Assembly: GCA_022539475.1 (NCBI GenBank)
Contig: VCMS01000151.1
Coordinates: 62,001 to 126,000, forward strand
From: Gracilaria domingensis
Taxonomy: Eukaryota; Rhodophyta; Florideophyceae; Gracilariales; Gracilariaceae
Reading direction: 5' to 3'
Length of the DNA stretch: 64,000 nt
The translations under genes and the position numbers were made by a program. Shown here piece by piece: positions 13,236-44,704 of this stretch. Positions within the stretch are counted from its first letter, which is position 1; every line of letters starts with the position of its first letter. The notes under the pieces were generated by a model that worked only from the letters and a program-made list of their open reading frames with translations, did no database searches and was not told the origin of the DNA.

Positions 13236-14089
13236 TGTAGAGCAAAATGCCGTGGACAGGGATGCACCGAGGTGTTTTTCATAGTCTGTTGATCCGTTAC
13301 CGGCTTCGACACCTCATGTTATGAGACGCTACTGTAGTAGTGGCCCTATTATGGAGTATGCCTAGAAAGGGTACTGTTTCTGCACACGTGTTCTGAGTTA
13401 GCCCGATGCCGGGTGCACCGTGGCAAGCCTGCCACGGTTTCACACGTGTAGGGTGTTGGCCCCCAGCGCCGGATAGTTAGATATTTCTAGTTGATATTTT
13501 CAACTGCCCTATATAAGTGGCGGCACTTGCCGGCACTTTACGGGAAGTAAACCTCAAGGAGGCTTCTGGCTCTGACTTTCTTGCCGGTTGTGAACGGTCT
13601 TCGTCTATAGTCGGGCAAGCTGCCGCAGTTCCGGGCTATTCATCCGACCTCTACCATTGAGGAGTTCTAGTCCATCGTTACGGCATCTTTGCTGTTGTTT
13701 TATTGTTATTATTTCCGTCATACGGCTCCGATCACTCTGCCCTGTTATACAGGTTTGACCCACATTGTCTGGGAATATTTCTCGATCTCGCGAGTCAGTG
13801 CACCACTGCGCGGCTCGTTGGTTGCCCGTTTTACCCAACACCGTTGGCTTGGATATCTCCACTCGCTGTGGCTCTTCGGAATTACCCGGATTCTACGCCG
13901 ATTCTACCTACCCCAACCTCCGGCTGCACACCCAGGACGGGGCTGCTCAGATTTACACCCGACCTGTGTCAGCCATATCGGAGGGTTCCACTACCGACCG
14001 TACCCCTACAGACAGCGGGGCTCGAACAACCTGTCCGTGCGCTACCCGCGAGGCGGCTCTTGTTTGCCCACTTGGGGAACTGCACCACA
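13236..14089 (+). repeat. 5' LTR of element C
   Basis: Starts TGTAGAGCAAAATGCC and ends GCACCACA, with a near-complete match to 23349-24201. It holds a TATA box (TATATAA, 13510-13516) that would drive element RNA. Open frames of 139-161 codons within it also occur in the other LTR and are composition effects. Confidence 0.92.
13510..13516 (+). promoter_or_regulatory. TATA box in LTR of element C
   Basis: TATATAA in the middle of the LTR, conserved in the other copy at 23623-23629. Its place fits the U3/R boundary region of an LTR promoter. Confidence 0.55.
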
Positions 14090-14091
14090 AA

Positions 14092-14108
14092 CGGGTCTCT
14101 CGACCTAA
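14092..14108 (+). other. Primer-binding site of element C
   Basis: GGGTCTCTCGACC starts 3 bp after the LTR. It closely resembles the primer site of element D (TGGTCTCCCGACGTAG on its own strand), so both appear to use the same tRNA primer. The tRNA itself was not identified. Confidence 0.45.
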
Positions 14109-14253
14109 AATCCGCTTTATTTGCCAACATCTGTTGGAGTTCGTTCGTTTGTTTGGAGCCCAGATAGTTGGGAATATCCGTTCTTACGGTTCTTTCATTG
14201 TCCGTTTCCGTAAGTTGCTTTGGTTGCCAATTGGCCGACCGTGTCGGTGAACG

Positions 14254-16220
14254 ATGTCATTTTGTCGCAGGCGGTGCGCGCCACGTGCCGCTTCTGTGCC
14301 CGGTTCGTCCGGCTTGCCGGCAAGCCTGCCTCCTCTGCCGAAGGACACACTTGAGTTCCTCGGTAATCGCGATCCGAAACCGGCTTCCAGGGGTCTCCGT
14401 TCTGATAACGGGGCCCCACCCACTCGTAGCCCAACTGAAACCGCACCTGCGGCTGATTCCGCCGCAGAGGTTGAAGTTATGTCGTCACGGTCCGACGAGT
14501 ACACCTTCCGTGAATTAGAGGCTCAGGTTTGCATTCTGCAGAACTCTCAAGTGGGCCTCATCCGGGATAGTACGAAACTCTGGCAACGGCTCGATGAAGC
14601 CGGTGTCCGGGATGTTTCGGGCGACGTCCGTGTTTTACAGTATGATGTCAACCAGATTATGGAACACCGACAGATGTCGACTGCCCTGCACGAGCAGGCT
14701 ACCGCGCGCCTGGACCGCTTGGCTACCCGTCTGGAGACGGTCGAACAAATCATCATTTCTGATGCTACTACGCCCGGAACCCGGGTTTTCGAAGGTTCTC
14801 GGCATTCGCACCGCTCCCGGGGTCACCCGGCTAAGGAGAAGAAGGTTAGGTTGGAACCTCATTCGTCTTCTTCGTCCTCTCCAGAAAAGAAAGCCCAAAA
14901 TGTAGGATCTTCATCCGACTCGTCGGACAGCGAGAAAGATCGCTCTCGCCAGCGTGCTTCCCGTTCGCGGGCTACTGAAGCCACTTCTGGTGTTGCACGA
15001 GGCCGTAAGAAAAAACAGAGGCACCTTGAATTGAAGGAATTGAAGCCGACGAATCTACTGTATCGGAAGTTCCTGTCGTACAGATATTATCGTCTCGAAG
15101 ACACGATGCCACAGAGGACCCCACATGGGATTAGCAAAGTGCGAAATCATCTCCGACAAATGGAGCTCACGCGAAAGCCCGACAAGTTCTCTGGGGAAGG
15201 TCCAATTCTTGTCTTGGATTTTCTTGGCCGCTTCGTGGCGGAAGCCGATGTACTTTGGATGAGTGAGGCACAGGCCTACATTGCACTGCCGTACTTCTTG
15301 ACGGGCGTAGCCGAAGATAAATTCAATTCGGTTCGTGGGTCATCTCGTGCCTCCGAAGGAGGAGTTACGTGCTGGCCGGAAGCGGTACAATATCTCCTGC
15401 GCTCTTACGCGACAGGCAACGCGATACAGGCTGCTATACTCACGCTGCGAGACACGAAGCAAGGAGCCGACGAAAGGAAAAGTGTTTATTCTACACGCCT
15501 GAACAAGGCTTTTCCCGCTGTGGTAACGTGTACTCTGCGACAGAGCGATGCACGATGTTTGTTGATGGCTTGGACCGATCAATTCGGACGTTGGTAGCCC
15601 GTTATCGGGAGAACAAGCTCCGGATTACCTATCCGGAGCTCGTACAATTTGCCCAAGCTGAGGGAGATGCAGCTCGCGCACGCGCTCGTGTCAAGACGCG
15701 CACGCGCTGCCTCCTTCATGTCGAAGGCCGAGACTCTTCTTTGCCTCTATCACGAGGTTCGGTTCAAGAGGGTTATGACAACCTACACCTGTTACATGAT
15801 GGTTCAATGCCGACTACGGAGTTTCCGTCGGCGACGGAGCCGTCTACTGTTAACGTAGACCCCGCTCTGTACACCGGTCAACACGTTCCGGCTTTGCACG
15901 TGCCACATTCTGGTAGATATCGCAGTGAACGCCCTGGTTGGAGGGATTTCTATCCTCCCCGACAGGAACGCCGTCAGCCAAATCCGGATCTTCTCCGGCA
16001 CCTTATTTGTTACACCTGTTACAGGCATGGACACATCGCTCCGAATTTTTTAATGCCCATACGGGATATGGCGACGATCGTGCCTCAGTATCAGTCGTTG
16101 ACGCCCGCCGAACGGGAACGTGTTGCCGACAAATCTTACCTTCGTGCGAGGGCGGAGACTCAGCCTGGAAGTCAGGAAACGGTGCCATCGAATGGTGGAA
16201 CTGTAGCCGCTCCTGTGTAA
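14254..16220 (+). pseudogene. Element C Gag
   Basis: Two overlapping frames, 14254-15597 and 15369-16220. The first has a coiled-coil-like N-terminal part, a Ser/Lys/Arg-rich linker (SSSSSPEKKAQN) and a capsid-like region. The second carries the end of the capsid region and a knuckle-like CYTCYRHGHIAPN. Gag builds the particle and packages RNA. Confidence 0.7.
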
Positions 16221-16394
16221 TCAAAACCTCCGCAGATTGGCGGCGAAGCTCAGACAAACTGAGCATGGGAGCCCCAAGCATTGGAGAGGCGCCCCCAGCG
16301 ACGGAGTCTAGTGCGCCTGAGGCTGAGAAGCCTCGCTCCCGGGTCACAATCCTTTCGAGGAAAATAGCCACTACAGACGTGAACTCTGAGCAGC

Positions 16395-17751
16395 TTGGTG
16401 TCTTGCGTCGCCCGTGGATACGGTCCAGGAACAGCCGGTCCCCAGATAGAGTCCTGGTTGGTCATAACGGAACGAAAATACAAAGTTTACGCCGACCTAG
16501 GGGTTTCCGACCAGTATATGGTTCGGCAGTTGTCAGTGCTTGATACAGGAGCTGGGCCAAACTTTTTGGTTGAGTCTATGATTCCGCCGCACTTGCGGCC
16601 TCGCGTTGGTGCGGCGCCACATATTGATATCGCGGATGCGAATAATCCGCCACTCTCTACAGTGGGAGTGATAGACCTGCTCTTCAGGCTTGGCCGCTAC
16701 GTGGTAAAGCTCCACTTCTTCGTCTGCAAGCAGGCAGCTCGCTGCGTTGGTTATACTCGGATGTGACTTCTCTGACCGCTTCGTCGAATCAATTCGACCA
16801 CGGCAAAGAACCATCGAACTGGAGGATGGGACCATTGTACCGATCGTTCGGCGTCCTCTTCGACGGGCTTTGGAGAAGCAATTTCCTTTGCCCGCTGCGC
16901 AGGAGTCTGCCGCTGATGAACGGAAGTCTACGAAGCTCCGAGTTGCTCGGTTTTTTTGCATTACGCCCGAATCGCAGGTCTGGGTTACTGTAACATCTCC
17001 ACAGTGTGGCTTACAAACGGTGCAACCGTTGCCTGCGTTGCAAGAGAAGCATCAGCTCGCCCTGGCTGATGGGATTGTTTTCGTCGAACCCAAGAAGCCT
17101 TTTCAGATGCTGGTTGCGAACGTCAGCCGTTTTCCTCAACGTTTGGTTAGGAGCCAAGTTATTGAATCATTGCTTCCGCACCCTGCGGCTATAGTTCCTA
17201 CTCAGTCTTCTATGGCCGAAGCTCTCGGTATCCTGAAAGCTGAGGAGGGGGAGGCGGAACGGAACTGTGCCGGACCGAACACTGGACCAAAGAGTCTGTC
17301 GGGAGATACTGCACTGACTTCGTCGGATGCGAATGACCGCAGCCTGTCGAAAGAAGCAAGGCCGACCTCGTCGAACAATAATAAGAAGAAGGGCCGGAGT
17401 GCTGCTGACACGAAGGATAAAGCAGTACAGGAACTGGAGTCTCTGGATCTTGAACATGTCCCAGAGACTCACTGCGATAAATTGCGGCACATGCTCGAAG
17501 AGTTCACGCCCATGTGGGATGGCACACTGGATAAAATTGGAATAACTGAACATCGGATCGATCTAATGCCGAACACACGGCCAATCTCACAGCACCCTTA
17601 CAGAGCAGGACCGACAGCTCTACAAGAGGAGAAAGCTCAAGTCGAGAAAGAGCTCCGCGCTGAAGTTCTCGAGGTGCCTCAGTCACCTTGGGCATCTCTA
17701 GTGCTGCTCGCGCCCAAAGCTGATGGGTCTTGGCGATTTTGCATCGATTAA
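16395..17751 (+). pseudogene. Element C protease and start of RT
   Basis: The protease active-site motif VLDTGAGPNFL lies near 16537, followed by the C-terminal ILGCDF block that closes retroviral-type proteases. A linker rich in Ser, Asp and Lys leads into RT thumb-finger sequence (ITEHRIDLMPNTRPISQHPY and VPQSPWASLVLLAPKADGSW). Confidence 0.75.
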
Positions 17752-18929
17752 CGCAAGCTGAACTCGGCCACGGTCAAGGATGTATATCTTATCCCACTAA
17801 TGGATGCGTGCATCGATTCGTTGGGCGACTCACAACCTTAGACGCGAATTGGGGCTTTTTGCAAGTTCCCGTGAGGGCCGAAGACTGTGACAAGACAGCC
17901 TTCTTTTGTCATGAAGGATTGTACCGATTTAATCGGATGCTTTTTGGGTTAACGGACGCGCCAGCCACATTTCAGAAAGCTGTGCATATTTTACTCTCCT
18001 GCTTCAAGTGGAAGATTTGCCTGGTTTACCTGTACGACATCATTATCTACTCCAGCAACCTGGACGAGCACTTGACCCACGTACGAGAGGTAATGCGAAT
18101 CCTACGCAATGCAGGCATTACGCTCAAGCTCGAGAAGTGTGAGTTCTTCACTGAGACCGTCAGGTATCTCGGCCACGTTATCCTTCCTGGACGGCTGTCG
18201 ATAGATGAAATCCGTGTGAAATCCCCCGAAGAGGCTAAGCATCCGCGGACGCAGACTGAACTCTCATCTTTTCTCGGCTTGTGTAATTTTTGCCGCCGCT
18301 TCATACCGAACTTTGCGGACATCGCGGCCCCGTTGAATGAGCTCCCCCGCAAAGGACAGTCAGTCAACCTGGAAGAATTCGACGACCGCAAGGCTGCGGA
18401 TTTTTCGTCGCTCGTGGACGCGGTGACATCGCCACCTGTCTCATCCCTATCTAGGGCTGGTTTGCCGTATGCAATAGATACGGATGCGAACGACTACCAA
18501 GTTGGCTGTGCATTGTTCCTGACCACCGAAGATGGCGAGCGATTTCCAATTGGGTATTGGTAAAGAAGGCTCAACGTTCACGAGAGAAATTACTCGGTAT
18601 CCGAGAAGGAGTGCTTGGCAGTTGTCTGGGCATTACAGACACTGCGGCTCTATCTTATGGGAACTCGCTTCATTGTTCATACCGATCATTCTGCCTTACG
18701 CTGGCTACTCTCTATAGCAGAGCCATCTGGCCGCTTGATGCAGTGGAGACTTCGCTTGTCGGAATTCGACTTTGAAATCCGCTACAAGAAAGGACTCCTG
18801 AACACTCAGGCTGATGCATTGTCGCGCTTAGAAACAGCGGCTGAAGCTGCGCCAGTCGATGATCTGGAAATACTGTGCTTCCTCGCGGAAGACGGCTCTA
18901 GTGATGCCGATGAAGATTCGGACGGATAG
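17730..18929 (+). pseudogene. Element C RT palm and RNase H
   Basis: The RT palm is visible through FNRMLFGLTDAPATFQ, the active-site region VYLYDIIIYSSNLDEH, and the thumb (LGLCNFCRRFIPNFADIAAPL). RNase H follows, with AIDTDANDYQVGCALFL, then VVWALQTLRLYLMGTRFIVH and TDHSALRWLL. It ends with the AdALSR block that closes Ty3/gypsy RNase H. Confidence 0.78.
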
Positions 18930-19057
18930 GAGATCTACGATGCTGTTTTAGCCGTGTCTGACAAGCACCCAGAACCGGGTTCTTTCGTACCGCTCAAGCC
19001 GGAAGAACTCATCCGGGAACAACACACGGACCTTTTTGTACTGAGATTCGTAGCCGT

Positions 19058-20569
19058 TTGAATGGCGAAGCACGGCTGCCTTTCGTCGAGAACGACCAAG
19101 GATTCCTCATCCGAACTGTCAGATACAGGCCACAGATTGTGGTTTCGCACTCCCTTCAGTCACGAGTACTGCATCTGTCGCACTATGCGAAGCTCTCAGC
19201 CCACCCTGGTGGCAGGAAGTTGTACTACACCTTGAGGAAGGACTTCTACTGGCGAGCGATGGCTTTTGATGCGTATGACACTGTTCGTGGATGTTCTGAT
19301 TGCGCAAAGAACCGCGTCAAACTGCGGAAGTACTCCAAGAAGTTGGTACTCTTCCCTGCTAGGGCTCCACTCGAATTCATGGCTATTGACTTGCTCGGCC
19401 AGTTTATTCGCACTCCCCAGGGAAACCGGTTTCTACTTGTGATCACCGCCCGCTTTTCTAAGCTGGTACGGACTGTGCCTTTGAAGAAGGTTACCGCCAG
19501 TGCGGTCGCCCAAGCTTTCGTTACACACTTGGTTTATGTCTACGGACCGCCGATTGACTTGCTATCGGATAATGGACCGCAGTTTGCGGCTAAGTTCTTT
19601 CAGGATGTCTGCCGCATCTGGCGGATCTAAAACTGGTCCGCGACAACATATCATCCCCAGAGTAATGGGCAGGTTGAACGCTTTAACCGCACAATGCTCA
19701 ATGCATTACGAACGTTCTTTGCCGAGCATCCGTCGGAATGGGATCAGTACACCGATGCGGTGACATATGCCTACAATACGCAGTTTTATCGCAGTACTCA
19801 GATCTCGCCGTTCGAGTTTGTGCTATCATGCGTTCCACGGTCGGTGGACATCGAGTTACAGCCAGTACTGGACAAATTCCCCTCGCCGCGCCTACATAGG
19901 GACGTGTGGAAGGGATGGCTCACGAAGATTATTCCTACGTTTAGGCAGAATATCGCTCAAGCACAAGCCGCCTACAAGCAAAATTTTGACGCCAGAGTGT
20001 GCAAAAATGCCCCTCAGATCAGGGAGGGTACCTATGTCTTCATAAGGAAGGAATATTACAATCCCAAGAAGGAGAAGCGCCACAAGCTTTCTCCTATGGC
20101 GGATGGTATCTATCGGGTGATTTCAGTTACCGACACTACGGTTGTACTTGACATCAACGGAGAGCACGAGCGTTTTTCGCGGAATCGCGTAACGCCTGCG
20201 CCAACGCCTGCTTCTCAAGAAACGCAACCGGAAACGCCGGAAACCGCTACGCCTACTGTCGAACCAGCCGCCGAAGCCGAAGCGCGCACTTCGTTGTCAG
20301 TATTGCCGCAGCATGACCGCGGACTCGCTGATTTGCCGGATAAGCCGGAATCTTACCAGTCAGCCTCTGCTGCCGCTCACGTAAGCACGCGAATACTGGC
20401 CCCTCCAGGGATTATAACTACCGCCCCCGACGCTCCAACTGAGGAGGGGGAGGAGGCAGATCACTCTTCATCATTGTCACCATCGTCGACGGAATTGCCT
20501 TCGCAGGCCTCTGTCCGCACGCAGCACGCGCTGACGCAGGAGAAACAGACGGAGATCCAGAGCGAATAG
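19058..20569 (+). pseudogene. Element C integrase
   Basis: The HHCC zinc region is seen in HPGGRKLYYTLRKDFYWRAM and GCSDCAKN. The core holds MAIDLLGQF (first Asp) and LLSDNGPQFAAKF (second Asp), then NGQVERFNRT-type sequence with the Glu. A C-terminal part with FIRKEYYNPKKEKRHKLSP resembles the SH3-like domain. A long Pro/Glu/Ala/Thr-rich tail follows. Confidence 0.78.
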
Positions 20570-21715
20570 AATGACCCGCAGTTATCGCGAAAGCCTGAGG
20601 AGGAACGCACCACTTCGGTGGAGCACGAAGCCGGAGAACCGGAAGAACACCAGGATTTAGCTGCTGCAGAAGCCGCCGCTTCGCCCGCGGATAGTACTGT
20701 ATTGCCGTCACAGACGGAGGGACAGCAGCCTGCCCCAGCTGTGCAGCGTGAGACTCACACGCCGAAAAAGAGTTTAGTAAACACCGCAACAGCCGCGTCG
20801 AATGCGGAGAATACACGAGTGCTGCAGTCGGAGCCCGCGAGCAGGAGCGGAAATGCATCAAGGAAAGCCGGAAGTCCGGAAGAAAGGTTAGTCAAAAGAG
20901 ACCGTGCTGTTGAGGCAGACCCGACTTGGGAGATGTCAGTGAAGCATCGAGTGATGAAGCCGTTGAAAACAGGGAAGAAACCGGCGATATGGAGAACCGG
21001 TACGCCACAGTAAGTGGGAAGAAGCACAACGCTGCACACACGCGCACATTGCGCGAAGTTTTTGGTTCCGCCGGCGATCCGTCTCCAGTGGAGAATGACA
21101 GCACACGAGCCGAGCACGTGCCTGCTGTAAGGGTTGCGGCCGCCGAAAACGGAAATTCCGAATTAGAATCGGCAGCGCACAGCCGTGCAACGGCGCAGGC
21201 TGCATCACCAGCAGTGAGTGGCGAAACGCCGCCACGGCGCGCACGACAGCACCACTCGCTGGTGCACCGCAATGCGGACCGTTCATGCTCACGACGGGAG
21301 ATCCCGCCGGAACGCCGGAAGCTCTCTGTACGAGAAGACCAAGCAAGGTCACAGGCCGACAACTCGGGAAGGAAATCCAGAAATCTGGAAGCCTGAATGT
21401 CAGGAACACACAATCGCCACCAGGACTACCTGGCGTACATAACGCACTGCCGTCAGAAATGGAGCCGTTTGGCAACGACGCCCACGACGGGAAAGCAATC
21501 AACGACATCTCAGAAGAGAGCACAATAACCGAACTGCACACTGAGCGGCTTGTCCTCGACAGGGAATACGTTATAGACCGTCTGATTAGTCACGTCTACG
21601 TCTCTGATGGAGAGCTATTGTGCCGAGTCCGTTGGTACGGCTGTCCTTCTTCGAAGAACACACATGAGCCTATCGAGCATTTGCCTCGCTCTAAGGTCCT
21701 ACAGTAGAACCGTCT
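20570..21715 (+). pseudogene. Element C Pol tail and chromodomain
   Basis: A low-complexity tail (Glu, Ala, Pro, Arg) ends in a chromodomain at about 21570-21706 with YVIDRLISHVYVSDGELLC, then VRWYGCPSSKNTHEPIEHL. The aromatic residues and HEP (usual WEP) match the family. Element D has the same domain with VRWYGYPPSRDFWEPL. Confidence 0.7.
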
Positions 21716-23348
21716 CACACGGACACCGATACCGGCTACGCTGGACAAAGCCCAAGTAGGTTGACCACCCACAACTTGTGAGTTATGCCGTCTCAGACGG
21801 AAAATTCCGCTTCACGCGGATGGAACCTTGTTGATACTAACATGCCGCTCTATGCGGAAAGCCTTTGCTGAACAGACGAGCCGCAAAACGTGGAAGCCAC
21901 GTAGAGCGGAGAAGAGGATGAAGACGAAAGAAGCCTAAGAAGAAGGAGAAGAAGCCAGGACACTGGAAGGAAGACTAAGAAGTTTTATCGCTACAGCCGC
22001 TTCTGCGGAAAGTCAGCCCTCTCTTGTAGGCCATTCGCAACAGCCTCGAACGAGGTATTGCCTACTGAGAAGGGGGAGAACAAGAAGAAAAAATTGAGCC
22101 AAGCCGGCAAGGGCTTGATGAATTACCTCTGCTATACGGGGCATGCCTTATCGTCTATATCACTTTTGGTGCCACTACATATAGAGCAGTGCCGAGCCTC
22201 GTCGGTTTCTTTGCCGCAGAGACGGACTTACATTCGCCATTACTGGGAAATTGCGCTTGACCGTTCTCGCTGTTCACGGTTTCATAGCCCAGTTTTCTTG
22301 GAATGTTTGCACGTTCATGGGTGTCTGGTATCTGTTACACCGTTCTACGACATGTCCGGATACCGTTTATTGACTGCATGCCTTCATATGTGACGAAGGT
22401 CTAAGCACTACAGTACTGCTGATACACTGGATCGGACTTGTGCTTTCTCCGTCACACGGCATTTCCTAATATCTCAACGTCGCGAAGACACCTTTGTGGA
22501 TGGTATTAGCCCCCTCTATGAGGTCTCTTTCATTGTGAGAAGGTTGGATGCGAAGTTCCGAAGTCATCTCGGTTGGTCAATCAACTTGCCCTTTTGGGAT
22601 GTCCGAACGGGAACGATCTCGTTTGACCCACTTAATCAAGCGCAAATTCCGATCTTTCGGTGTAAATCGACTCTAATTAGAAAGACTTAAACATGAACGA
22701 GACGGCCTACTGCCGTTTGCAACGGTTCCAGAGTTATGGCGTTCTCGAAACACCCCTCGGTTGAGCTATTTTTAGCATAACTTGGGAGTGCGCTATCTCC
22801 GCAATGCAGTTGCCAATTACTCCGGGAACTGGCGTCAGAATAGAACTTCGGTAGGGCTACGAGGAATTGTAAACAATGCTGACTTTCGTTGTCATTCAAG
22901 CCGCCCAGCAGAGGTGTTCAGTTCGCCGATTTTCGGATGTGTGCAGTGAGGCCGAACCGAAACGACCTCGTTTAAGGCACTTTCCGGTCTTCAAATCCGG
23001 CTTTCTTTGACTTAATCTTCTTGTTCGAGTCTGGAAAATCACCGGAGGGGCCGGTTTGCTCCGTGCTTGACGGCAAGCTGAAAACTCGGAACTCCCGATA
23101 TTGGCGAAGAACCTACTGTAACCGATACCAGTCGGGATTTTTTTTTGGGGAACGACCACATTCGTGGACTGGAGTCTCGCTCGGGAAGATGTAAGACTGG
23201 CTGGGATGTGTGTATCGGGAGGCACAGCCGCTCGGTTGTTGAAAGGGAACCCAAAATTAGGGATTTCAGCGCACGACCTGGGTAACCTGCAGGCAGTTCG
23301 GACGCATCGAGCCGACGAAGTCGGTGTCTCAGCACGACAAGGGGGAGA
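21716..23348 (+). other. Element C 3' noncoding region
   Basis: No domain is seen in 1.6 kb. Palindromes of the form CCG-N-CGG cluster here, for example at 21710, 21788, 21807, 21845 and 21997, most with 4-5 bp stems. A purine tract (CAAGGGGGAGA) lies directly before the LTR at 23349. Confidence 0.6.
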
Positions 23349-24201
23349 TGTAGAGCAAAATGCCCTGAAAAGGGATGCACCGAGGTGTTTTTCATAGTCT
23401 GTTGATCCGTTACCGGCTTCGACACCTCATGTTATGAGAGGCTACTGTAATAGTGGCCCTATTATGTGGTATGCCTAGAAAGGATACTGTTTCTGCACAC
23501 GTGTTCTGAGTTAGCCCGATGCCGGGTGCACCGTGGCAAGCCTGCCACGGTTTCACGCGTGTAGGGTGTTGGCCCCCAGCGCCGGATAGTTAGATATTTC
23601 TAGTTGATATTTTCAACTGCCCTATATAAGTGGCGGCACTTGCCGGCACTTTACGGGAAGTAAACCTCAAGGAGGCTTCTGGCTCTGACTTTCTTGCCGG
23701 TTGTGAACGGTCTTCGTCTATAGTCGGGCAAGCTGCCGCAGTTCCGGGCTAGTCATCCGACCTCTACCATTGAGGAGTTCTAGTCCATCGTTTCGGCATC
23801 TTTGATGTTGTTTTATTGTTATTATTTCCGTCATACGGCTCCGATCACTCTGCCCTGTTATACAGGTTTGACCCACATTGTCTGGGAATATTTCTCGATC
23901 TCGCGAGTCAGTGCACCACTGCGTGGCTCGTTGGTTGCCCGTTTTACCCAACACCGTTGGCTTGGATATCTCCACTCGCTGTGGCTCTTCGTAATTACCC
24001 GGATTCTACGCCGATTCTACCTACCCCAATCTCCGGCTGCACACCCAGAACGGGGCTGCTTGGATTTACACCTGGCCTGTGTGAGCCATGCCGGAGGGTT
24101 CCACCATCGACCGTACCCCTACAGAGAGCGGGCTCGAACAACCTGTCCGTGCGCTACCCGCGAGGCGGCTCTTGTTTGCCCACTCGGAGGATTGCACCAC
24201 A
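23349..24201 (+). repeat. 3' LTR of element C
   Basis: The second copy of the 13236-14089 repeat. It is preceded by a purine tract and followed by TCTCG, the partner of TCTTG at the left end. Confidence 0.92.
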
Positions 24202-34519: not shown

Positions 34520-35185
34520 TCAACCAGCCTCTCTGGAGGCCGCGAGACCGGACATCGTTGGTTCGTGCTCTAGCTCTCTTAAGAGCCAGAAGGCACGCAT
34601 TGGGACAGATCTCGACACCTGGTAGATGCGACTGAGCGGTTCGAGTGTATCTTCTTCCGCTGGTAGACCTTCCCAGCGCACTTGGACCTTGATGCCTTCA
34701 TCTGTTTCCAACAACTTCATGAGGCGAGCTACTTCCATGCCAGTTTCGGACGTCAGCACATGAGACATGATAGCCTTCTAGTCCAAGGATTTGTCGTGAT
34801 AGAATCTGAATCGACTTCCCTGTATTTCTTCTATCCGGCCATTTCGAAGATCTTCAACTTGATAGACGTAATCTGATACGGCCTTAAGAATACGGCGGGG
34901 CCCACCCCAGCGTAAAGCTAACTTCGCTCCGGCGTGAAATTCATTGCGCGCTACGAGCACAAAATCTCCTTCAATAAAGTTGGGTAAAACGCCAGACTCC
35001 GTCTTCCTTCGCGACTTCTCCCTGTTTTTCTGCAATCGGTCTTGTACTAATGGGTGGAGAGTCCGCAATGCTCTTGGAGCTTTCAAATGTTTATGGCACG
35101 TTCGAGAACGACTTCGGACACTTCTATAGTTTTTCGTGATGCGGAACGAATAAAAGAAGCTATCGGAGGGTGGATTCCATTCCAA
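34520..35185 (-). pseudogene. Element E integrase C-terminus and chromodomain
   Basis: The frame 34778-35185 has the integrase C-terminal SH3-like part (VLPNFIEGDFVLVARNEFHA and LRWGGPRRILKAVSDYVYQV). The frame 34520-34768 has a chromodomain (RLMKLLETDEGIKVQVRWEG, then TLEPLSRIYQ). Confidence 0.7.
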
Positions 35186-35902
35186 TAAATGCCGTTACGG
35201 GAGCGACGTTCATTCGGTGAGAGGAAACGGCGCTGTTCAGTGCACTTTGCACGACGGGAAGTAGATCCGGCCATTCGATAAAATCCATTTGCAGTTCAGA
35301 CGTCAGCGCTCGGAATATTCGCAAAACTTCTTGAACAAGTCGTTCTACTGCGCTATTGCTCCATGGAGTGCATGGAAGCGTGAAGAGTTGTGGGACATGC
35401 AATGACCGGGACAAAATTCGGATGGTTTCCTTCCTGAAATGCGTGTGTCCATCGGACATGAGCCCGTTCGGTACGGCGAATATAGCACACCAGTCCACCA
35501 GAACGTGTGCAGTGTGCTCCGCAGAGGTATATGGGCAGGCAAAAAACCATTTATAGTCCGAATGGTCGTCACAGAGCATCAACAAATACTTCGTGCAGGA
35601 GTTGCTTTGGCCTATTCCAAGAAATCGAACTGCGACAGATCATTTGGGCCTGTGCCATGCATGGTGGGACGAAAAGGTCAAGGAACTTTCTGTCCTCCGG
35701 TAGTAGAGATACACTGTATGCAGACGTTGACGAGAGTGTGCACGTCGTTCTCGAGCGTTTTACAGGTGTAGTGCTTCTTGAGAGTCCTTTCAGTTGCCGT
35801 GCTTTCTCTGCGTCCTGCAGGCTCTGTATGTGCTATGATGCATAACCGCAGCTGGAGTGAGTCGCGTGGTTCTGGTAACCATATTGCTCCAGAATTGTTC
35901 AT
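35160..35902 (-). pseudogene. Element E integrase core
   Basis: The zinc region is seen in the 35678-35902 frame (VNVCIQCISTTGGQKVP). The core frame 35160-35585 has LMLCDDHSDYKWFFACPY, LMSDGHTHFRKE and CTPWSNSAVERLVQE. The last is the usual place of the catalytic Glu. Confidence 0.7.
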
Positions 35903-35929
35903 CCAAAGATCATTCTTCTTCTCGAAACC

Positions 35930-36356
35930 TGTAGTACAGCCACAGGCCGTGACAACGTACTATGCCCTGATAAAGGAAAAAATTGCGCAGCACTCAAGCG
36001 GGGACGAAGGAGCACTCAACGGACGCTAACAACGGGGCGCGAGATAGGCGCGCAGCACCGGTAGTGACGGTAGGATGACCGTTGTGGGAAACTAGACGAT
36101 GGAAGAATCGGCTAGGAGGTGCTTGAGGTTTACCACGGTGAGCTCTGCCCGGTGGGAGATGCTTAAGTGCACCTCCCACGGGCACAAGCCACGTGTCGAA
36201 AATAATAAACTATGTACCTATAAGGGGGGTCCCGAAGGGCGACACGACAACTGTCACAACCCTACACGTGTGGGACCCCGAGGTGCACCCTGTGCACACT
36301 AACTAAATAAACTAATACTATGCACCTGTCAGGGCGGTGCCTCTCACTGCACTACA
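35930..36356 (-). repeat. 3' LTR of element D
   Basis: On the plus strand it starts TGTAGTACAGCCAC and ends CACTGCACTACA, with inverted TGTAGT/ACTACA ends. It is nearly identical to 43392-43818. A pyrimidine run (CTCCCCTTCTT) follows at once, which is the polypurine tract on the element's strand. Confidence 0.92.
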
Positions 36357-39300
36357 GACTCCCCTTCTTAGGCCTGGCTTCGTCCCGAGGCTGGCCAAAC
36401 ATTCCCATTCGGGGAGCGACCGCGATTTCGGCCTTCAATGTACAACAATTTCCAGTCCACCAAGATCCCAGTTGGGTGACAATCATACTCCACGCAACGC
36501 GCGAGGGAGCGGCGCACAGCGCCCGCGGTGGAAACGTTACCGATGTGGCGAGCATCACGGCGACCCACTTCCTGTCTTCCCTAGAATTCCCGATTGGGTG
36601 GCGAGTCAGCGCGCGAATGCTGCGGCTGACCGACACGGCGAAGTACGGGTAATTGGAGCTCCGAAGCGCCCATAGGGTGCGTTCGCCTCAGATCGAATAA
36701 GGCCCACTGGGTTGGCCAAAGGACTCAAAATAATCTTCCCGACGAGGGCGTTCGTGCCCGAGGATACCGCCGTCGATTCCCCCACGGGCCGCGGAGATGT
36801 GCGGCCTGTCACTGACTTCCCGGTTGGGGCACTACGACCATTGGCAGCGCGCCCTATAATTCGTAGACCGCCAGAATCCCTATGGGCAAATGTGTCGCCC
36901 GTTCAGCGACCAACACGTCTCAGCGAGCGGTGGTGCTTCCCAATGGGTCGAAGTCAGGGCGCGCGCATGCGTTGCACGACAAGAACCCCGAGCATGGGAA
37001 GTAACAACACTAAACCCGGTCACAGAAGCGCAAACTGCCGAAACAGTCTCTGCGGGCACAAAAACGCCAAGGCCAAGAAGGCACAGTGCTTTCCCAAGCA
37101 TCAAATCCCGAATGGGGCAACCAGCGCGATATTAAGCATGCGCGTAACGCCTAATGGCGCCGAACGGCCAGGTTTCCCAGTTAAGTTCGTTGAATTCCCT
37201 CTGGGGAGCACGCGACACGCCGATGACGCTCCCACCTCCCCAACGGGTCACTGTCCGTTGCGCACGCGAGCGCTGTAGGTTCCTGAGAGTAGTCGTTTAG
37301 ATTGCTCTCCATGGTCAGTTGATGGTACCCCTCAGGGCAGTGCATCCAATTATACTACCGACTCCCCTTCTTAGGCCTGACCTAACAGGTCGGCCAAGTC
37401 CCATGCGGAAAGCGAACGCGAGCGTAGCACGGCGAAACACTCAGTTCCATACCAGCACAATCCCACTTGGGCAACGAGCGAGTGCACCAAAATGGGAACG
37501 GTGGGAGCAATGCGCGAATCCCACTAGATGGGGGGATCCGTTCTTCAATGCCTATCAACAGACACGGCGAAATGACGAGGTTCAAATCGTCGAGAATCCC
37601 GTAAGGGTTGGAAGCGGCGGAAAAAGAAACCGTTCGCAACGGTGTAGTTCTCGAAAGAATCCCATGCGGGTGAATATCACAAGCGAAAACACGCGTGAAT
37701 GAGCGCCACGAAGTACCCAGATGGGAACAAGACCAGCACACGAAATCAACAGGGTGAACCACGTTTTGCCTTTCTCGAAGTCCCAGCCAGGTGACACACG
37801 AGCGCACGAGCGCTGCGGCTGACCGACACGGCGTGAGACGAATTACCGAAGGAAGAAATCCCGAGAGGGTCACGAACAAGCGCGACCTTGAAACAGCGAG
37901 GTAGAGATTACAGCAGTCCCGTAGTGGGCAATCCGACCAAATTAAGAACCGGCGACAGTCGCCAAGGATTGCTGGAGTTTCAATTCCTACAATCCCTGCG
38001 AAGCGCGCGCGAGCGATGCGACACGGGGAGCCTCAGTGCGGAAAAATCCCGTTTGGGTCGACAGTCTGATAAGCAAACCAGAAACAAATTCCAGACCAAT
38101 CTGGATCCCGGTTGGGCAAGCTACGACCGAAACAAGGTTCGCGGTTGCTCCCTAATGCGAGAATCCCACGCGGGGTCCAGCGGTGCCAAGTGTGCAAGAG
38201 CAGGTTCGAACCATCCTCAAAACTCCTAGAGGGGTGATACGCCATGCACGGAATCATGAGTAGAGCCCGTGGTTGGGTAACAGACTGTTCTTTCGAGGAG
38301 AAGCTAGTAGACGCATACCGCATTACCGGACGCAGCATTTTCCTGTTAGGTCAGTGAAGGTACGAGGAACACGCTTCGATACAGCGAGGCAGTGATTCCC
38401 AGCTGGATCCGTAATGACGGATGACCTGCTTAGCTTCTGTAGAGGAGTCAACTCCCCAAAGGGCAAGCGTAGCCCTCTCCGCTTATCCCATAGGGCCGCT
38501 GCCTATCCTGCGCAGATGTCACGCAGCGCACTTGTCATGTATCTGTAGAAAGGCAGTCCCAACAGGGCGTTCATGTGGCACGGATACCATCTCCATTATT
38601 TCAAATAGCCCATCATGGGATTGATCTATCGAAATTAGAATGGGTCTCGCTGTACTCCATGGAGGGTTGACGCACCTGTGGCCAGTACACGGTTCGAGCT
38701 GAGAAGCTCTCCGATCCCGGGGAGGGTCTGAGACATAGTACGAATAATTGTACATTCAATCCCGTATGGGTCCGTTTCACTCAACGACATTCCTCTGCAG
38801 GCGCTTCAGTTTCTACTGTATCCACCTGTAGGGTTCCTTCCGATTACGCATTGTGTTGAAACGACGCGCGTCGACGACAAACGTTTGTTCCCAATGGGTA
38901 TAATTTCCTTCCCAGGGGTCTACAACAGGAGACAGAGGCTCTCGAAGTTGTTTTCCCAAGCGGTCACATGTCTGAATGACAGGCGTTGGCGTTTCGTACA
39001 TAGATTCTAACGATATCCCATAAGGGCCCTGCGCGTCGTCACGAATCGCTTTCTCTCCAGCAACGACTTTCACTGATCCTACTGGGTGCTACGCGTCTCA
39101 GTCGACCCGCTATCTGCTGCCGACGGTCGCAGAACTGTTCAGGTGTCCCCCATGGGTCGTGTCTTTTGCCGGTTCCAAGGGCAGCCAATCCCACAACGGG
39201 TACTCTTCTTACCGTGTACGACCCTGGCGAGGGGCATTCCGAAAAGGTTCCAGGTTCCCTGGTGGGTGATGGTCCCGGTGGGCTTCGCTCGCTGCACGCG

Positions 39301-40466
39301 CCTGCGAAAGGTGAGTCTTCTAACGCGTCTTCCGAATCGGACATGGACGTTCCCATCAGTGCCGTCCGTTGCCGTCTTCATACCCGTGGTGGGAATGCGT
39401 AACGCGCTTCTGCTCTCTTGAGTCAATAAAGAGCTTCAGCTTGCCCTTTTCCCCTAGAGGGATGCGTGTTCGAGATCTGTTTGCGGCGAGATTATCCCTC
39501 CCGACGGCCAGCGCGGGCACTTCGGCGATGCGCGCGCAGGGTGCGCAGCGTGCGGCACGGCGCTCAGGGCGTAAATTGAGCCCTTCTTGGGTCCCCTCCC
39601 CTTCTTGGGGCGCGCTTGGACTCCAAGCACCGAGATTTCCCGGCCGGGTGAGCCGGAGAGCCGTTGGCGGCACGCGCGCGCGTGCGTGGCACTGCGCGCG
39701 TGAGCGCGGCACGTGCCAGCAAGGCTGGGGGGGTGCACAGTACGCGCGGCGGCCAAGTGGGCATGTCCTCGATAGGTGAATAGCCCAGAATCGGCTGATT
39801 TCCCAGAGGGTTACTTGCAAGGCGAATCAAAAAATTCGCGCCGGCAATTACCCTCTCAGATGGGGTGGAAAACGCCGATTCTTTGTTTTGCCCGTAGCTC
39901 GAAAACGCGGGCGTTTCAGTGGCTCGCAATGCCTGATTTGGGGTGCGCGGCACATCAAAGTACTTAGGATTTTTTGATCGTGCCAGAACGCATCCCTACG
40001 GGCAATACTGTATACCCAATTGGCTACCGACAGGCGTGGGCCACGTGGCGTTTGGCACGCTTGCAACGGCGCATGGCGGTGCACGCGCTTGTGCATGGCG
40101 CGCGCGTGTCCTACGTGGGTATTCCGAGCGTGCAATGGCGCGCGCGTGTCCATCGTGGCCCTCCCACGCGTGCAACGTCGCATGCCAGCAAGGCCGTGCG
40201 CAGCACAGGGTGTGCATAGTCCTCAAAAGGTCGCCCGCTTGGTACTCCGGGCGTTCCGAGTCGTCCTAGATCATCTCAAAGGGGTCCAAACTTCTCTGAA
40301 AGCGTCGCGAATCCCTCCGAAGGCCTCCGCGAGACCCATAGGGACTTCAAACGAGCGCTATCCCGCCGGGAAAAGTTTTGGCCGCCATGGCCGGTGGGAG
40401 ACTATGCCAAACTTTTTCGTACCCGAAAGGGGAAAAGCACTCCAAAGTCCAGGAAAGAGGTTGCGT
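36357..40466 (-). other. Element D 3' noncoding region
   Basis: 4.1 kb between chromodomain and LTR with no recognisable domain on either strand. About 45 bp next to the LTR (36327-36371) recur in similar form at 37327-37372, as if an end-proximal segment was duplicated about 1 kb inward. GC-rich runs occur at 39500-39760 and 40040-40200. The CCC-N4-GGG motif is the only pervasive structure. Confidence 0.65.
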
Positions 40467-40688
40467 TCAGTTGCGCGAGCGTTCGCGATCACGGCGGGCG
40501 TGAAATCGGGCGACATCGTTAAAGGGAGTGTTGTTGAGAGGCTCCCAGAAGTCTCTCGAAGGTGGGTAACCGTACCATCGGACTTTGACCACAGCGGACC
40601 CATCGGTGGCCACTCCCTCGTCAAGGACGTTTTCTACGACCCGTTCGCGTGAATCGTCGCCTTCCTCCTCGAGGAGTTCAGGCGACAA
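40467..40688 (-). pseudogene. Element D chromodomain
   Basis: Contains VVENVLDEGVATDGSAVVKV, then RWYGYPPSRDFWEPLNN, a good chromodomain match and the closest relative in this window of the domain in element C. A basic Arg-rich tail ends it. Confidence 0.75.
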
Positions 40689-40874
40689 TTACACGTCTGG
40701 ATGGGGTATTCCAAAGAGTTCAGGCAAGGTAGTAGGATCGACCGAGACCTGTTTCGGGCCAGTAGCCTGTGACTCAGAAGGAGTGTTCCCAGTGGGGTCA
40801 GACGCCTCGGAAACCGGCGTCGGCGTTCCCTGTTGGGCTGATGCGGGCTTAGGCGACTGCGGCAGTGTCGTTGG

Positions 40875-41431
40875 TCACTCGGCTGCGTCAAAACCCCGTG
40901 GGGCTTTCGTGATACAGTCGATGGAGACCGTGTCGTGCATGTTGGCGTCCAAGATGGTCACGGTTGTGTCTGTAGCTTTAACAACCCGAAAGGGACCAGT
41001 TGTTCTAAGAAGGAGCTTGCGGGAGACAAATTCTTCTTCCGCAGTCTCCGTAGCTTTCCGTGGAGGGCGGTCTAAAAAGACGTAGTCCCCAGGGGAAAGT
41101 GAGAGCTGAGCTCGTACACAAGAATCAGAGTCGGCCTGGTAGCGCCGCTGGACACGGTCCAATGTCGCTTTGGCCTTCGAGAGGAGATACCGAATACGGG
41201 CGTGTCTCTGACGTTTCACTGTGACCGAATTCGGATTGTCAGACCCAGCTGGGGAGATAGCGGTGGTTGGCGCATCAACAACGATCCCAGGGGGTGTCGC
41301 GTTAGCACCAAATCAAAAGGTATCGTCCCGGTGGTTCTATGAACCTGGGAGTTGTACGCGAAGACCAAGGGCTGGACGAAATCATCCCAGTCTTGCTGGT
41401 GCTCAGACACGTAATGCCTGAGGCCTCCCAA
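40875..41431 (-). pseudogene. Element D integrase C-terminal half
   Basis: Two adjoining frames. 41216-41431 has WDDFVQPLVFAYNSQVHRTT and GTIPFDLVLTRHP, the region after the integrase core. 40875-41219 has the C-terminal part (LSPGDYVFLDRPPRK and GPFRVVKATDTTVTILDANM). The catalytic core upstream is not seen. Confidence 0.75.
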
Positions 41432-42242
41432 AAGGGTTCGTCATAGATAAAAGGAAAGGAAAGACCATCAGAGAAAACGGAAAAGAATAACCGCGCTGCC
41501 CGACAAGAAAGTCAAGGGAAAGCGAATAAATCCCAGAAGGGTGTACTTTTCAAGCAGAAACTAATGCGAAGAACCAACGAAAAACGGGTTGAGATTAGTT
41601 CGAGTCCCAAACTGGGGCTTGAACCGTTTCGGTTGTTTCACGACCGTAACGCATGTTCAACCAACCGCTCTCCATCTTGGGCGAGCGCACTGCATGAGCG
41701 AAACCACCGCAAAGGAAACAGTGCGCAAAAGCCTGCACAACTCCAATAGAAGTGGAGTAGAGCATAGAAAGAGTCCCGTTGGGTAGTCAAGACTCTGAAA
41801 ACGTGTACGTTGTCCAACGAACAAAACAAACTGTCCCAGCCAGGGTTATTTTTCTTTAAGGAACAGTAGTGGACAAGCACTTTCAAAGAGAACGGTGTTC
41901 CTCGCAACCGGAAAACGTTGTCGAGGACATAATAAGGCAGTTAGTGATGGGCAAGTATCCCGTACAGGGTGATCCCAGAGTGACATGGGGATTCGATTAA
42001 CTTGTGTAACAAGTGTAAATGATTCCCACATGAGGGTACCTGCACGAGACAAGTCGAGAGGTGTAGGACCAGTCCTTGTCCCATATGGGTTCCGAACCGA
42101 TCCATGTTCCATGACGGTGGTGACAACGTCCTAGTTAGGTCATGTTAGACTTGTCAGGAGTTAGAGTAAGCGGGAGAGACAGAAGCATACATTTGATACT
42201 TCTGCGGGTCGAAGAGCAGAGCTTGGAGCTAACCGCCTTCAA
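41432..42242 (-). other. Element D stretch between gag and integrase
   Basis: About 0.8 kb where protease, RT, RNase H and integrase core would be expected. I recognise none of them. The CCC-N4-GGG motif continues through it (for example 41532 and 42080). Confidence 0.55.
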
Positions 42243-43265
42243 TTAGTTCCCGTGTGGGGGTAGAATGCTTTGCAATTCGTCCCGCTCAGGGTCGGAGCAG
42301 TCCGACTCGCTCCACTCGGGCATATCTGAGCTCAAGTGAGAGTCTTCCGAGTCGGAAAAGTCAAGACCCAAAAGGGATGACTTCCTCCGGTTCCGACTTC
42401 GGCCTGGGCGTCTCCTTCTTCCCCTTTTGTCGCGTCCCAATTGGGTCACGCCACCGGTACTCTTCTGTTTCCCTAGAGGAGGAGTTCCCAAGTCGGGTCT
42501 ATCACTACTGGGGTCCCTGCCGGGTCTGGAATCTGCTTCATGTTCGGCAGGGATAGTGGTCGGTTGCCATACCGAGACGGCCGGCTGACAGTTGACAGTT
42601 TGCTCGTACTCAATGGCAGCGAGCTGGACACGGCGCTGTACCTCAGTGTGCACACTGGTGGCAATAGCGCCGTCCAGAATTCCGGTGACGGTCATCTTAG
42701 AAGCGACCCGCTGGACAAGGGTATCCAGCAGGCCCTCCACTTCAGCATTAACCCTGTGGGGAATACGGCGCTCGACCTCAAGTGTCACCATAGACTTCAC
42801 GAGTGGCCTCAGGGCTATGAGTAGCTCTCCCGTAACGGGTTGAACCTCACTCCCTACGGGTCGTTGCGGAGTCCCAACGAAGGTCTCGGGCGCTGTTGCC
42901 CTGGGGGTCTGCGGCTGCGGAGTCGCTTCTCGAGAGGCATGCTGACGCATGGCCTCGAGACGGTTCCGAAAGTCGGTCGGGGAGGACTGACGGAGTATGC
43001 GCTCCGGGTCCTCCACAGGTTGTAGAATCCCTCCATGGGTACTACGAGTGCTCGGAGCCTCTGAACCGGGAGCAGGCGGAACTTCGTCAGTGCCGTTATC
43101 CCGATGGGGTTGAGCAGAACCGGCGTGTTCATGGGAGGATTCTGGTGCGGTGGCCATAACGGGAGGCGGAAAGGATTTTTCGTCCGGCTTGCGGAAAAAT
43201 GAACGCAAATGCGGGCAAGTTCGAGAAAACTCTAGAGAGAAAAAGCGACGGAGCGGTGAAACCAA
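42243..43265 (-). CDS. Element D Gag-like protein
   Basis: A 340-codon frame that appears open. A Ser/Pro/Glu-rich N-terminus is followed by a helical middle (LLDTLVQRVASKMTVTGILD) and a basic segment (KRGRRRRPGRSRNRRKSSLL). It ends in an acidic Ser/Asp-rich tail (SDSEDSHLSSDMPEWSESD). No zinc knuckle is seen. The layout is like the N-terminal half of Gag in element C. CCC-N4-GGG sites fall in all three codon phases here. Gag function is inferred from position after the LTR and leader. Confidence 0.55.
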   Translation of the reverse strand: MVSPLRRFFSLEFSRTCPHLRSFFRKPDEKSFPPPVMATAPESSHEHAGSAQPHRDNGTDEVPPAPGSEAPSTRSTHGGILQPVEDPERILRQSSPTDFRNRLEAMRQHASREATPQPQTPRATAPETFVGTPQRPVGSEVQPVTGELLIALRPLVKSMVTLEVERRIPHRVNAEVEGLLDTLVQRVASKMTVTGILDGAIATSVHTEVQRRVQLAAIEYEQTVNCQPAVSVWQPTTIPAEHEADSRPGRDPSSDRPDLGTPPLGKQKSTGGVTQLGRDKRGRRRRPGRSRNRRKSSLLGLDFSDSEDSHLSSDMPEWSESDCSDPERDELQSILPPHGN

Positions 43266-43375
43266 ATGATCCGCGACGGGTCTAAAAGGCCCGAGAGGGA
43301 AGAAGTGATTCGAAAGCGACGAAGCGAATCCCGTGACGGTCGAATAAACTAGAAAAGACCCGAGAGGGTTATTCT

Positions 43376-43391
43376 ACGTCGGGAGACCAGT
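43376..43391 (-). other. Primer-binding site of element D
   Basis: On the element's strand TGGTCTCCCGACGTAG follows the 5' LTR after one or two bases. It begins TGG, as expected for pairing with a tRNA 3'-CCA end. It resembles the site of element C. Confidence 0.6.
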
Positions 43392-43818
43392 TGTAGTACA
43401 GCCACGGGCCGTGACAACGTACTATGCCCTGATAAAGGAACAAATTGCGCAGCACCCAAGCGGGGACGAAGGAGCACTCAACGGACGCTAACAACGGGGC
43501 GCGAGATAGGCGCGCAGCACCGGTAGTGACGGTAGGATGACCCTTGTGGTAAACTAGACGATGGAAGAATCGGCTAGGGGGTGCTTGAGGTTTACCACGG
43601 TGAGCTCTGCCCGGTGGGAGATGCTTAAGTGCACCTCCCACGGGCACAAGCCACGTGTCGAAAATAATAAACTATGTACCTATAAGGGGGGTCCCGAAGG
43701 GCGACACGACAACTGTCACAACCCTACACGTGTGGGACCCCGAGGTGCACCCTGTGCACACTAACTAAATAAACTAATACTATGCACCCGTCAGGGCGGT
43801 GCCTCTCACTGCACTACA
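43392..43818 (-). repeat. 5' LTR of element D
   Basis: A near-identical partner of 35930-36356, followed on the right by the target duplication AAACC. Confidence 0.92.
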
Positions 43819-44677
43819 AAACCATCAGGACGAGATTGTTCGCGGGCGGTTTGCTGAGTGACAATTTCGTCTGCTCTGGGCCAGCAGAAATCTTCGGCAG
43901 CGGTAGTTGGAAGCTCTGAAACTTTCACAATTCGGCGTAGGGTTGGAGGGGTTGCCCAACGTGTGAGAAAGTCGGTCCAAACATTTTCCAATTCGTTGAT
44001 GTGAAAACAAATGTAGTTGTAAATGCTGATTCGAACTGCCCAGCGCAAAACTTCGCGAACGGAGGGCATGCTGAGGTCAGGGATGATAGAAAGCGGGTCT
44101 AATAAGAACACGAGGTTGTTGTGATCTGTGTAAAGATCAAATCTTGCAATTATGGCGACCATCCAGTGAATATGTTCTAGAGTGGCGACAATTGCAAATG
44201 CCTCTTTCTCCATGGTAGACCACCCAAGCTGCCTCGTGTTGAATAAACCTGAACAGAAAGCCAGCGGTGTGTGCCTTTGTTCGTGATGTGGCTTGGTGTG
44301 GGTGGGCCCTGAGTGACTATACCAGACCATATGTTGTCCGACGCATACGTGTAAACACACAAGCGCTGGTTTTAGTCGCTGTGAGCGAGTGTCAAACTGT
44401 GGACGAGGGCATCTCTGCAAGCGATGAATGCCTTGGTCTCTTTCTCTGACCAGTTTAGAGAGGCGAGTTCAACCCGTGCCACGGCAGATTTCGTGCGTTT
44501 GCCGCCCTTGGCATACACGTTTTCCAGGAATTCATGGAGCGGGAGGATGACCTGCGATAAATTCGGGATGCTCATCTTTGCCCATTGAAGCGCACGGAGA
44601 AACTGTTGCAAATGTGCGCCGTTAGATGGGGACTCCATGCAAAGTACTCTCTCTAATTGCCTTGCATCGTACTTCAC
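43819..44677 (-). pseudogene. Element E RNase H and RT thumb
   Basis: The frame 43806-44420 (its last few codons are LTR of D) has STMEKEAFAIVATLEHIHWM and RFDLYTDHNNLVFLLDPLS, classic gypsy RNase H. The frame 44372-44677 has the RT thumb (QFLRALQWAKMSIPNLSQVI). Confidence 0.75.
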
Positions 44678-44704
44678 GCCTGCTGCTGAGATGATTCTAC
44701 CACA

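Follow-up and report, generated by a model that had tools for sequence, protein, structure and literature searches.

A 64,000-nucleotide (nt) stretch of the Gracilaria domingensis genome (the window; contig VCMS01000151.1, positions 62,001 to 126,000) contains a Ty3-type long terminal repeat (LTR) retrotransposon, element D, whose internal region is filled with short inverted repeats of the form CCC-Nk-GGG. Related Ty3-type elements of this genome carry many short inverted repeats of a kind specific to each family, over nearly the whole internal length where this was examined. The repeats are far above chance, are overlaid on coding sequence via synonymous codons and differ between families, and in two families (L066 and a second element of the window) they depend on complementarity. 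Chance, base composition and protein sequence do not explain the feature, which is established at the sequence level. Sibling families may each write a private inverted-repeat code, and a reader of exact complementarity would sum the sites and so tell own from foreign nucleic acid; we give this slightly less than an even chance, and it would amount to a new type of genome-wide cis signal. A more specific and somewhat more tentative proposal is that each family has its own stem-loop code, recognized in RNA packaging by a protein of the element, most probably Gag.

Element D has the features of an LTR retrotransposon: two LTRs identical at 420 of 427 positions, TG..CA ends and a 5-bp target duplication (AAACC, at 35925-35929 and 43819-43823). 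It lies nested in another element (window 33000-35900), and its parts are as follows.

35930-43818, minus strand: element D, Ty3-type LTR retrotransposon (LTRs, TG..CA ends, target duplication)
35930..36356, minus strand: left LTR (3' LTR in sense), 427 bp, ends TGTAGT...ACTACA
36357..43391, minus strand: internal region, carrier of the array, 73 merged CCC-N3-5-GGG sites (counts versus shuffles)
36357..40585, minus strand: long 3' part without long sense open reading frames (ORFs), taken as noncoding (ORF list)
40875..41219, minus strand: remnant of the integrase C-terminal end (ORF; reading match to a 198-amino-acid ORF of L064)
42243..43265, minus strand: gag-like ORF, 340 amino acids, named from position and composition only
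43392..43818, minus strand: right LTR (5' LTR in sense), 427 bp, ends TGTAGT...ACTACA

Within the internal region (36357-43391), CCC-Nk-GGG occurs 1, 5, 8, 27, 42, 23, 8, 4 and 2 times for k = 0 to 8, and the reversed order, GGG-Nk-CCC, 1, 2, 2, 0, 1, 0, 1, 3 and 3 times. The 42 sites with a 4-nt spacer bear out the approximately 40 counted in a sequence-only reading of the same DNA; its estimate of about 25 sites with spacers of 3 or 5 was too low, as there are 50 with overlaps counted, or 31 after merging with the 4-nt class. That reading named similar counts in shuffled sequence as a refutation, and the shuffles gave nothing similar: the mean for CCC-N4-GGG was 3.2 (standard deviation [sd], 1.9; maximum, 10) in 300 dinucleotide shuffles of 36358-43390 and 3.8 (maximum, 12) in 300 trinucleotide shuffles, and each of the spacers 3, 4 and 5 gave approximately 3 in shuffles versus 27, 42 and 23 observed. 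Among all trinucleotide pairs with spacers of 0 to 27, CCC-N4-GGG has the highest z score (42 versus 3.7). Changing one base of the site gives 18 variants, none of which is enriched in D (all z between -1.6 and 1.6), and 4-bp stems are not raised. In the gag-like ORF there are 15 overlapping CCC-N3-5-GGG sites versus 3.5 under synonymous-codon permutation. Dinucleotide and trinucleotide shuffles, far-distance controls and synonymous-codon permutation together rule out chance and base composition. A tandem-repeat origin is rejected, because D has only four direct-repeat families with two or three copies each, including the LTRs, and none could hold the array. The array stops at the ends of the element, as had been claimed: no site with k = 0 to 8 was found in the outer flanks at 35000-35929 (930 bases) and 43819-45000 (1,182 bases).

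The typical site in D and its relative L064 is mostly A/G-CCC-(3-5 nt)-GGG-A. The flank preference reported earlier is real: on the sense (minus) strand of D, GGG is followed by A in 63 of 92 overlapping sites and in 34 of the 45 merged sites of the 3' part (36358-40585). Such asymmetry points to a role for one particular strand. Pairing next to the stem is also avoided in D, with 5 of 73 Watson-Crick pairs versus 15.9 expected.

The regularity of spacing first described was mostly not real. Merged sites lie on average 97 bp apart (coefficient of variation [CV], 0.71), with just 20 of 72 intervals between 55 and 80 bp, and the sites are only marginally more evenly spaced than randomly placed ones (simulated CV, 0.88; P = 0.036). 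Between 37462 and 38165, where intervals of 54 to 78 bp had been read, the 4-nt sites are 136, 63, 55, 144, 188, 59 and 58 bp apart, or 136, 63, 55, 144, 58, 130, 59 and 58 bp with spacers of 3 and 5 added. The evenness is similarly slight in the three elements compared (P = 0.036, 0.058 and 0.036). Regular spacing and nucleosome phasing were rejected on these grounds, and the suggested chromatin-phasing signal finds no support since the spacing is at most slightly even.

The genome (77.9 Mb, 680 contigs) has 14 matches to phycobilisome linkers, ten of them spread over eight contigs and four on a further contig, C680, where three share one 878-amino-acid frame; these are taken as nuclear linker genes and a plastid contig of a red alga. 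A search of this genome with the DNA of D gave at least 53 matches to 37400-38400 and at least 41 to 42100-43390. One set of matches is D-like, and another covers only part of the 37400-38400 query. On contig C21, the two D-matching parts stand approximately 8 kb apart, and the middle of that element, L064, holds an intact 965-amino-acid pol ORF with the Pfam order RVT_1, RT_RNaseH, Integrase_H2C2, rve, i.e., the Ty3-type order of reverse transcriptase (RT), RNase H and integrase. The 198-amino-acid ORF matched by the integrase remnant of D lies just downstream; the remnant has no Pfam match of its own. The L064 pol contains 29 CCC-N3-5-GGG sites versus 8.0 in 500 synonymous-codon permutations (sd, 3.3; maximum, 19), distributed 14/9/6 over the codon phases. 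As the sites exceed synonymous permutation and use all three phases, the array is superimposed on a conserved gene. L064, too, avoids pairing next to the stem (6 of 38 versus 13.7 expected), and its flanks are nearly symmetric (of 52 sites, A in 24 and T in 16 after, A in 23 and T in 19 before).

Ten sibling pols at 58 to 61% identity were chosen from the 47 pol matches listed. They form three groups at the 60% level (L067/L068/L070/L073, L069/L076/L071/L072 and L074/L075) and are not ten independent cases. CCC-Nk-GGG with k = 2 to 8 occurs 1 to 13 times in these genes versus 36 in L064; the excess is mild in L067, L068, L070 and L073 (10 to 13 versus 3 to 5 expected), and the other six are near expectation. 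Ten homologous pols without the strong motif of D exclude a pattern imposed by the protein. When all 64 inverted triplets were scanned without bias, each sibling proved to hold another repeat. CCG-N-CGG leads in eight of the ten (z, 4.5 to 10.4 against synonymous permutation), e.g., 29 versus 5.2 in L067 and 36 versus 8.3 in L069, and ACC-N-GGT leads more weakly in L074 (z, 4.6; permutation maximum, 5.0) and L075 (z, 5.5; maximum, 4.7). The z scores of L071 (4.7) and L072 (4.5) do not reach the top permutation maxima of 6.4 and 6.0, so that the values of L071, L072 and L074 are inside the range of such maxima. The motif classes were picked after looking, against which the codon-permutation maxima guard partly. 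Families were compared from pieces, mostly pol, with longer stretches for D, L066, L065 and the second element of the window.

The same amino acids are written differently in different families. The motif [F/Y]PYG is TTC CCA TAT GGG in L064 (CCC-ATAT-GGG), TAT CCG TAC GGG in L069 (CCG-TA-CGG) and TAC CCT TAT GGT in L075 (ACC-CTTAT-GGT), each creating the family's own type of repeat. HPGG likewise yields the own-type repeat in L064, in L069 and L076, and in L075, and PFG is CCC TTC GGG in L064 and CCG TTC GGG in L069 and L076. Within two codons of 24 L064 sites, the sibling's own repeat was found at 12 sites in L069, 8 in L076, 7 in L067 and 4 each in L071, L073 and L075. For many pairs of genes, site positions coincide beyond a shift control, e.g., L064-L069 (11 versus 4.1) and L064-L067 (8 versus 3.0), with little coincidence in other pairs, e.g., L064-L074 (2 versus 1.1). 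Conserved amino acids account for part of the coincidence.

Two families carry 4-bp stems whose inner bases covary. L066 (C1:780800-788800), chosen for its cluster of sites, has 112 ACxy-N2-7-y'x'GT repeats in 8 kb versus 16.1 in 200 shuffles (sd, 4.2; maximum, 27). At the first inner pair (ACx...x'GT), every Watson-Crick combination is raised (AT, 16 versus 6.0 expected; TA, 31 versus 6.7; CG, 66 versus 18.8; GC, 36 versus 12.5), and the remaining combinations are not (G-U, 11 versus 18.6; A-C, 12 versus 21.7; others, 65 versus 81.4). The second such element lies within the window.

13236..23648, plus strand: second array-bearing Ty3-type element (terminal repeats of at least 300 nt, 97% identical, at 13236 and 23349)

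It has 122 CCxy-N2-7-y'x'GG repeats versus 15.7 expected (maximum in shuffles, 29), and its first inner pair is Watson-Crick in 190 cases versus 68.2, G-U in 39 versus 35.7, A-C in 55 versus 26.5 and otherwise mismatched in 164 versus 122. All four Watson-Crick types are raised here, as in L066. Pairing immediately outside CCC/GGG is favored in L065a, with 16 complementary cases of 24 versus 6.8 expected. Exactly three pairs seem to be wanted in D, whereas L066 and the second window element seem to want four or slightly more.

The array of L066 also runs through a 629-amino-acid gene (L066:1145-3034, plus strand) on the opposite strand to the neighboring pol (8000-4339). This gene has no Pfam family above the cutoff; 70 genomic places were scored for it (91 to 100% identity), 50 of which lack an internal stop, and a partial homologue split across several frames (51% identity over the aligned part) is located at L065:768-2090 (minus strand).

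Across the window, in 2-kb bins, D and the 11-25 kb stretch have raised numbers of 3-bp repeats, a few other bins reach z of 2 to 3, and 4-bp repeats are raised at 11-25 and 33-36 kb and more weakly (z, 2.0 to 3.4) in bins from 2, 8, 37-39, 45, 46, 51, 56, 57 and 59 kb. The element that hosts the insertion of D shows some 4-bp excess (z, 5.0 for the bin starting at 33 kb and 3.2 for that starting at 34 kb), with outer CC at 10 versus 2.9. Another Ty3-type element (3238-4971 and 5641-6882, minus strand) and a copia-like element (31104-33080, plus strand) lack a mini-repeat array and serve as negative controls; the coding sequences of these two elements, of a host gene and of a DDE transposase in the window gave a total excess of at most about 1.6 sd. 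A 40-nt direct duplication of 80% identity is present in the 3' part of D (40095-40174). Genome-wide, CCCN4GGG occurs 21,025 times and the reversed pattern 9,886 times, an excess whose sources were sampled in part. Three near-identical cluster matches approximately 11.6 kb apart on contig C144 (near 66.6, 78.2 and 89.8 kb) suggest tandem copies. No relatives were found in viral contigs.

Under the proposed mechanism, the repeats would form mini stem-loops to which a nucleic-acid-binding protein encoded by the element, most probably Gag, would bind. Recognition would take place during packaging of genomic RNA, with many weak sites jointly marking the RNA as that of its own family. More weakly, we infer that sense RNA is the strand read. 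Among the roles first suggested for the array, the hairpin is the best fit, given spacers of 3 to 5, unpaired neighbors and covariation in other families; the lack of tolerance for G-U pairs speaks against ordinary RNA folding, and the role of Gag is putative. D itself keeps only the integrase-end remnant of pol (ORF list, Pfam), and no RT-like ORF was noticed by eye among its ORFs of at least 80 amino acids, though it shares the L064-type code. Having kept the code of its presumed helper, it could be packaged in trans.

Several observations weigh against this proposal. Pooled one-mismatch stems gave 40 G-U versus 29.7 expected, 69 A-C versus 32.9 and 149 others versus 127.8. The G-U ratio of 1.35 is hardly above the 1.17 of other mismatches, contrary to ordinary RNA folding, and A-C exceeds G-U (69 of 109, P = 0.016), the reverse of the prediction for sense RNA. 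Enrichment does not rise for strong inner pairs, so stability seems not to matter. Folding energy in 50-nt windows was only approximately 0.5 kcal/mol lower in L066 and the second window element, on both strands, and did not change clearly in D; among three control stretches, one (25-31 kb, sense) had a larger gain, -0.74. The LTRs of D, which the RNA also includes, show no clear enrichment in sites (k = 2 to 5, three in the left and six in the right per 427 bp; reversed-order control, four each). The codes are not fully exclusive, as 4 of 10 siblings also have some CCC excess, and in L067 and L073, both of the CCG type, YPYG is written TAC CCT TAC GGG and makes the CCC type. The gag-like ORF of D has no homologue at E 0.001 among 7,361 candidates and no Pfam match, and a pattern search of D found no CCHC-like zinc knuckle. 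Constraint on the arms across copies of D is weak: in 29 copies, identity to D was 0.917 in arms and 0.866 elsewhere for 37400-38400 and 0.922 versus 0.902 for 42100-43390. The second refutation named in the sequence-only reading, family copies without the sites at the same places, did not occur either: the arms are 92% identical to D in both parts, though only weakly above the surroundings. The arms had a ratio of shared to singleton variants of 0.36, compared with 0.77 for loops, 0.45 for other CCC/GGG and 0.52 for the remaining sequence. Two decayed copies of the L066 family showed no clear stem protection. Neither a simple array of DNA sites nor ordinary RNA folding fits well, and, with strand and molecule signals mixed, a protein reading exact pairing would have to be assumed.

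A protein-binding array was also proposed from the start. A plain two-fold DNA site is disfavored by the covariation and the variable spacers. Binding of double-stranded DNA by a dimeric protein of the element or host, e.g., in VANDAL-like antisilencing, with specificity drifting between families, is unlikely, though it leads the alternatives. Each site is an inverted repeat, half-sites differ by family, the dense array ends with the element, and the exact CCC/GGG of D without partial sites resembles a protein site; family-specific dense VANC motif arrays are known (the accessible text of PMC5735166). However, a dimer on two half-sites predicts independent half-sites at fixed spacing and no inner covariation, and the inner bases covary strongly in L066 and the second window element, with spacers of 3 to 5 or 2 to 7 accepted. 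Variable loop length together with complementarity implies that one arm has to locate the other, a requirement that a fixed dimer site would not impose. Furthermore, the flanks in D are strongly strand asymmetric, and the sites cross coding sequence, whereas VANC21 motifs are described as mainly noncoding and often tandem (PMC5735166, in the part available).

Stem-loops in minus-strand complementary DNA (cDNA) or antisense RNA, which might organize single-stranded cDNA in the particle, are slightly less probable again. The excess of sense A-C, equivalent to antisense G-T/G-U, over sense G-U (69 versus 40, P = 0.016) favors them, and biased decay is not its cause because mutation in D copies is nearly strand symmetric (singletons, 395 C>T and 352 G>A); the intact gene opposite to pol in L066 points the same way. 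The A-C signal is nevertheless weak and absent at the first inner pair of L066 (6 versus 7.9), and the D-family pieces examined have no match to the antisense gene, save at the edge of L009, where a fragment of an L066-type element lies. The flank asymmetry of D is readable from either strand, and 3-bp DNA hairpins are expected to be unstable.

Another purpose at the RNA level (export, control of translation, binding of a host protein, or shielding against silencing or decay) is as doubtful as the cDNA explanation. It rests on the same evidence as packaging, and the sequence does not name the reader, but a host reader leaves the differing codes of coexisting relatives unexplained, and a generic structure would accept G-U and any stem sequence. 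Least probable is a mutational trace, e.g., fold-back copying by reverse transcriptase that writes small perfect inverted repeats: Watson-Crick complementarity independent of pair strength is the expected leftover, but copying would not fix a single favored outer sequence in each family or a stem of just three pairs flanked by unpaired bases, positions coincide between families at 60% identity (partly via conserved amino acids), and the synonymous switches at YPYG and HPGG look selected.

How LTR retrotransposons choose their own RNA, and why siblings do not cross-package, is an open question. A dispersed family-specific code, readable from sequence and written as a second code over reverse-transcriptase genes through synonymous codons, would make it testable and, if true, would explain the carriage of RT-less D by one particular helper. 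Should DNA or cDNA be the molecule read, the complementarity rule remains unexplained and is undescribed in the literature found; no description of a comparable array appeared in the titles and abstract openings listed by searches of the open-access literature, with few subscription papers among them.

The Drosophila gypsy Su(Hw) array resembles the present one in placing repeated protein sites within an LTR element; it is a single noncoding cluster of about a dozen sites with no pairing logic. In retroviruses and Ty1, Psi lies near the 5' end, and Ty1 Gag prefers Psi-containing RNA in competition while otherwise binding with high affinity and low specificity in vitro (PMC8396678, in the text available). 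Psi is thus alike as structured RNA preferred by Gag, but the present signal extends over the length of the element. Arabidopsis VANC/VANDAL provides a dense short-motif array enriched in one transposable element family, with a motif that shifts between families; its DNA sites are mainly noncoding, often tandem and in one orientation (PMC5735166, likewise in part). The CCC motif is similarly strong only in D and L064 and not in their siblings, whereas the present sites are inverted, covarying and nontandem and run throughout coding sequence, gag and pol included. Closest to the proposed stem-loop code are MS2-type dispersed packaging signals, many short stem-loops with one shared recognition feature genome-wide, and the available portion of PMC6281560 speculates that repurposed Gag-like proteins may assemble similarly. 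Many copies of a shared feature are likewise found along the D internal region, the L064 pol and L066, but the signals described there belong to RNA viruses and hepatitis B virus rather than LTR retrotransposons (PMC6281560, same portion), and the present elements have up to approximately 110 sites in 8 kb, stems that follow Watson-Crick pairing but not G-U, and sibling-specific codes. None of the systems compared here shows all of its own defining features in the present elements.

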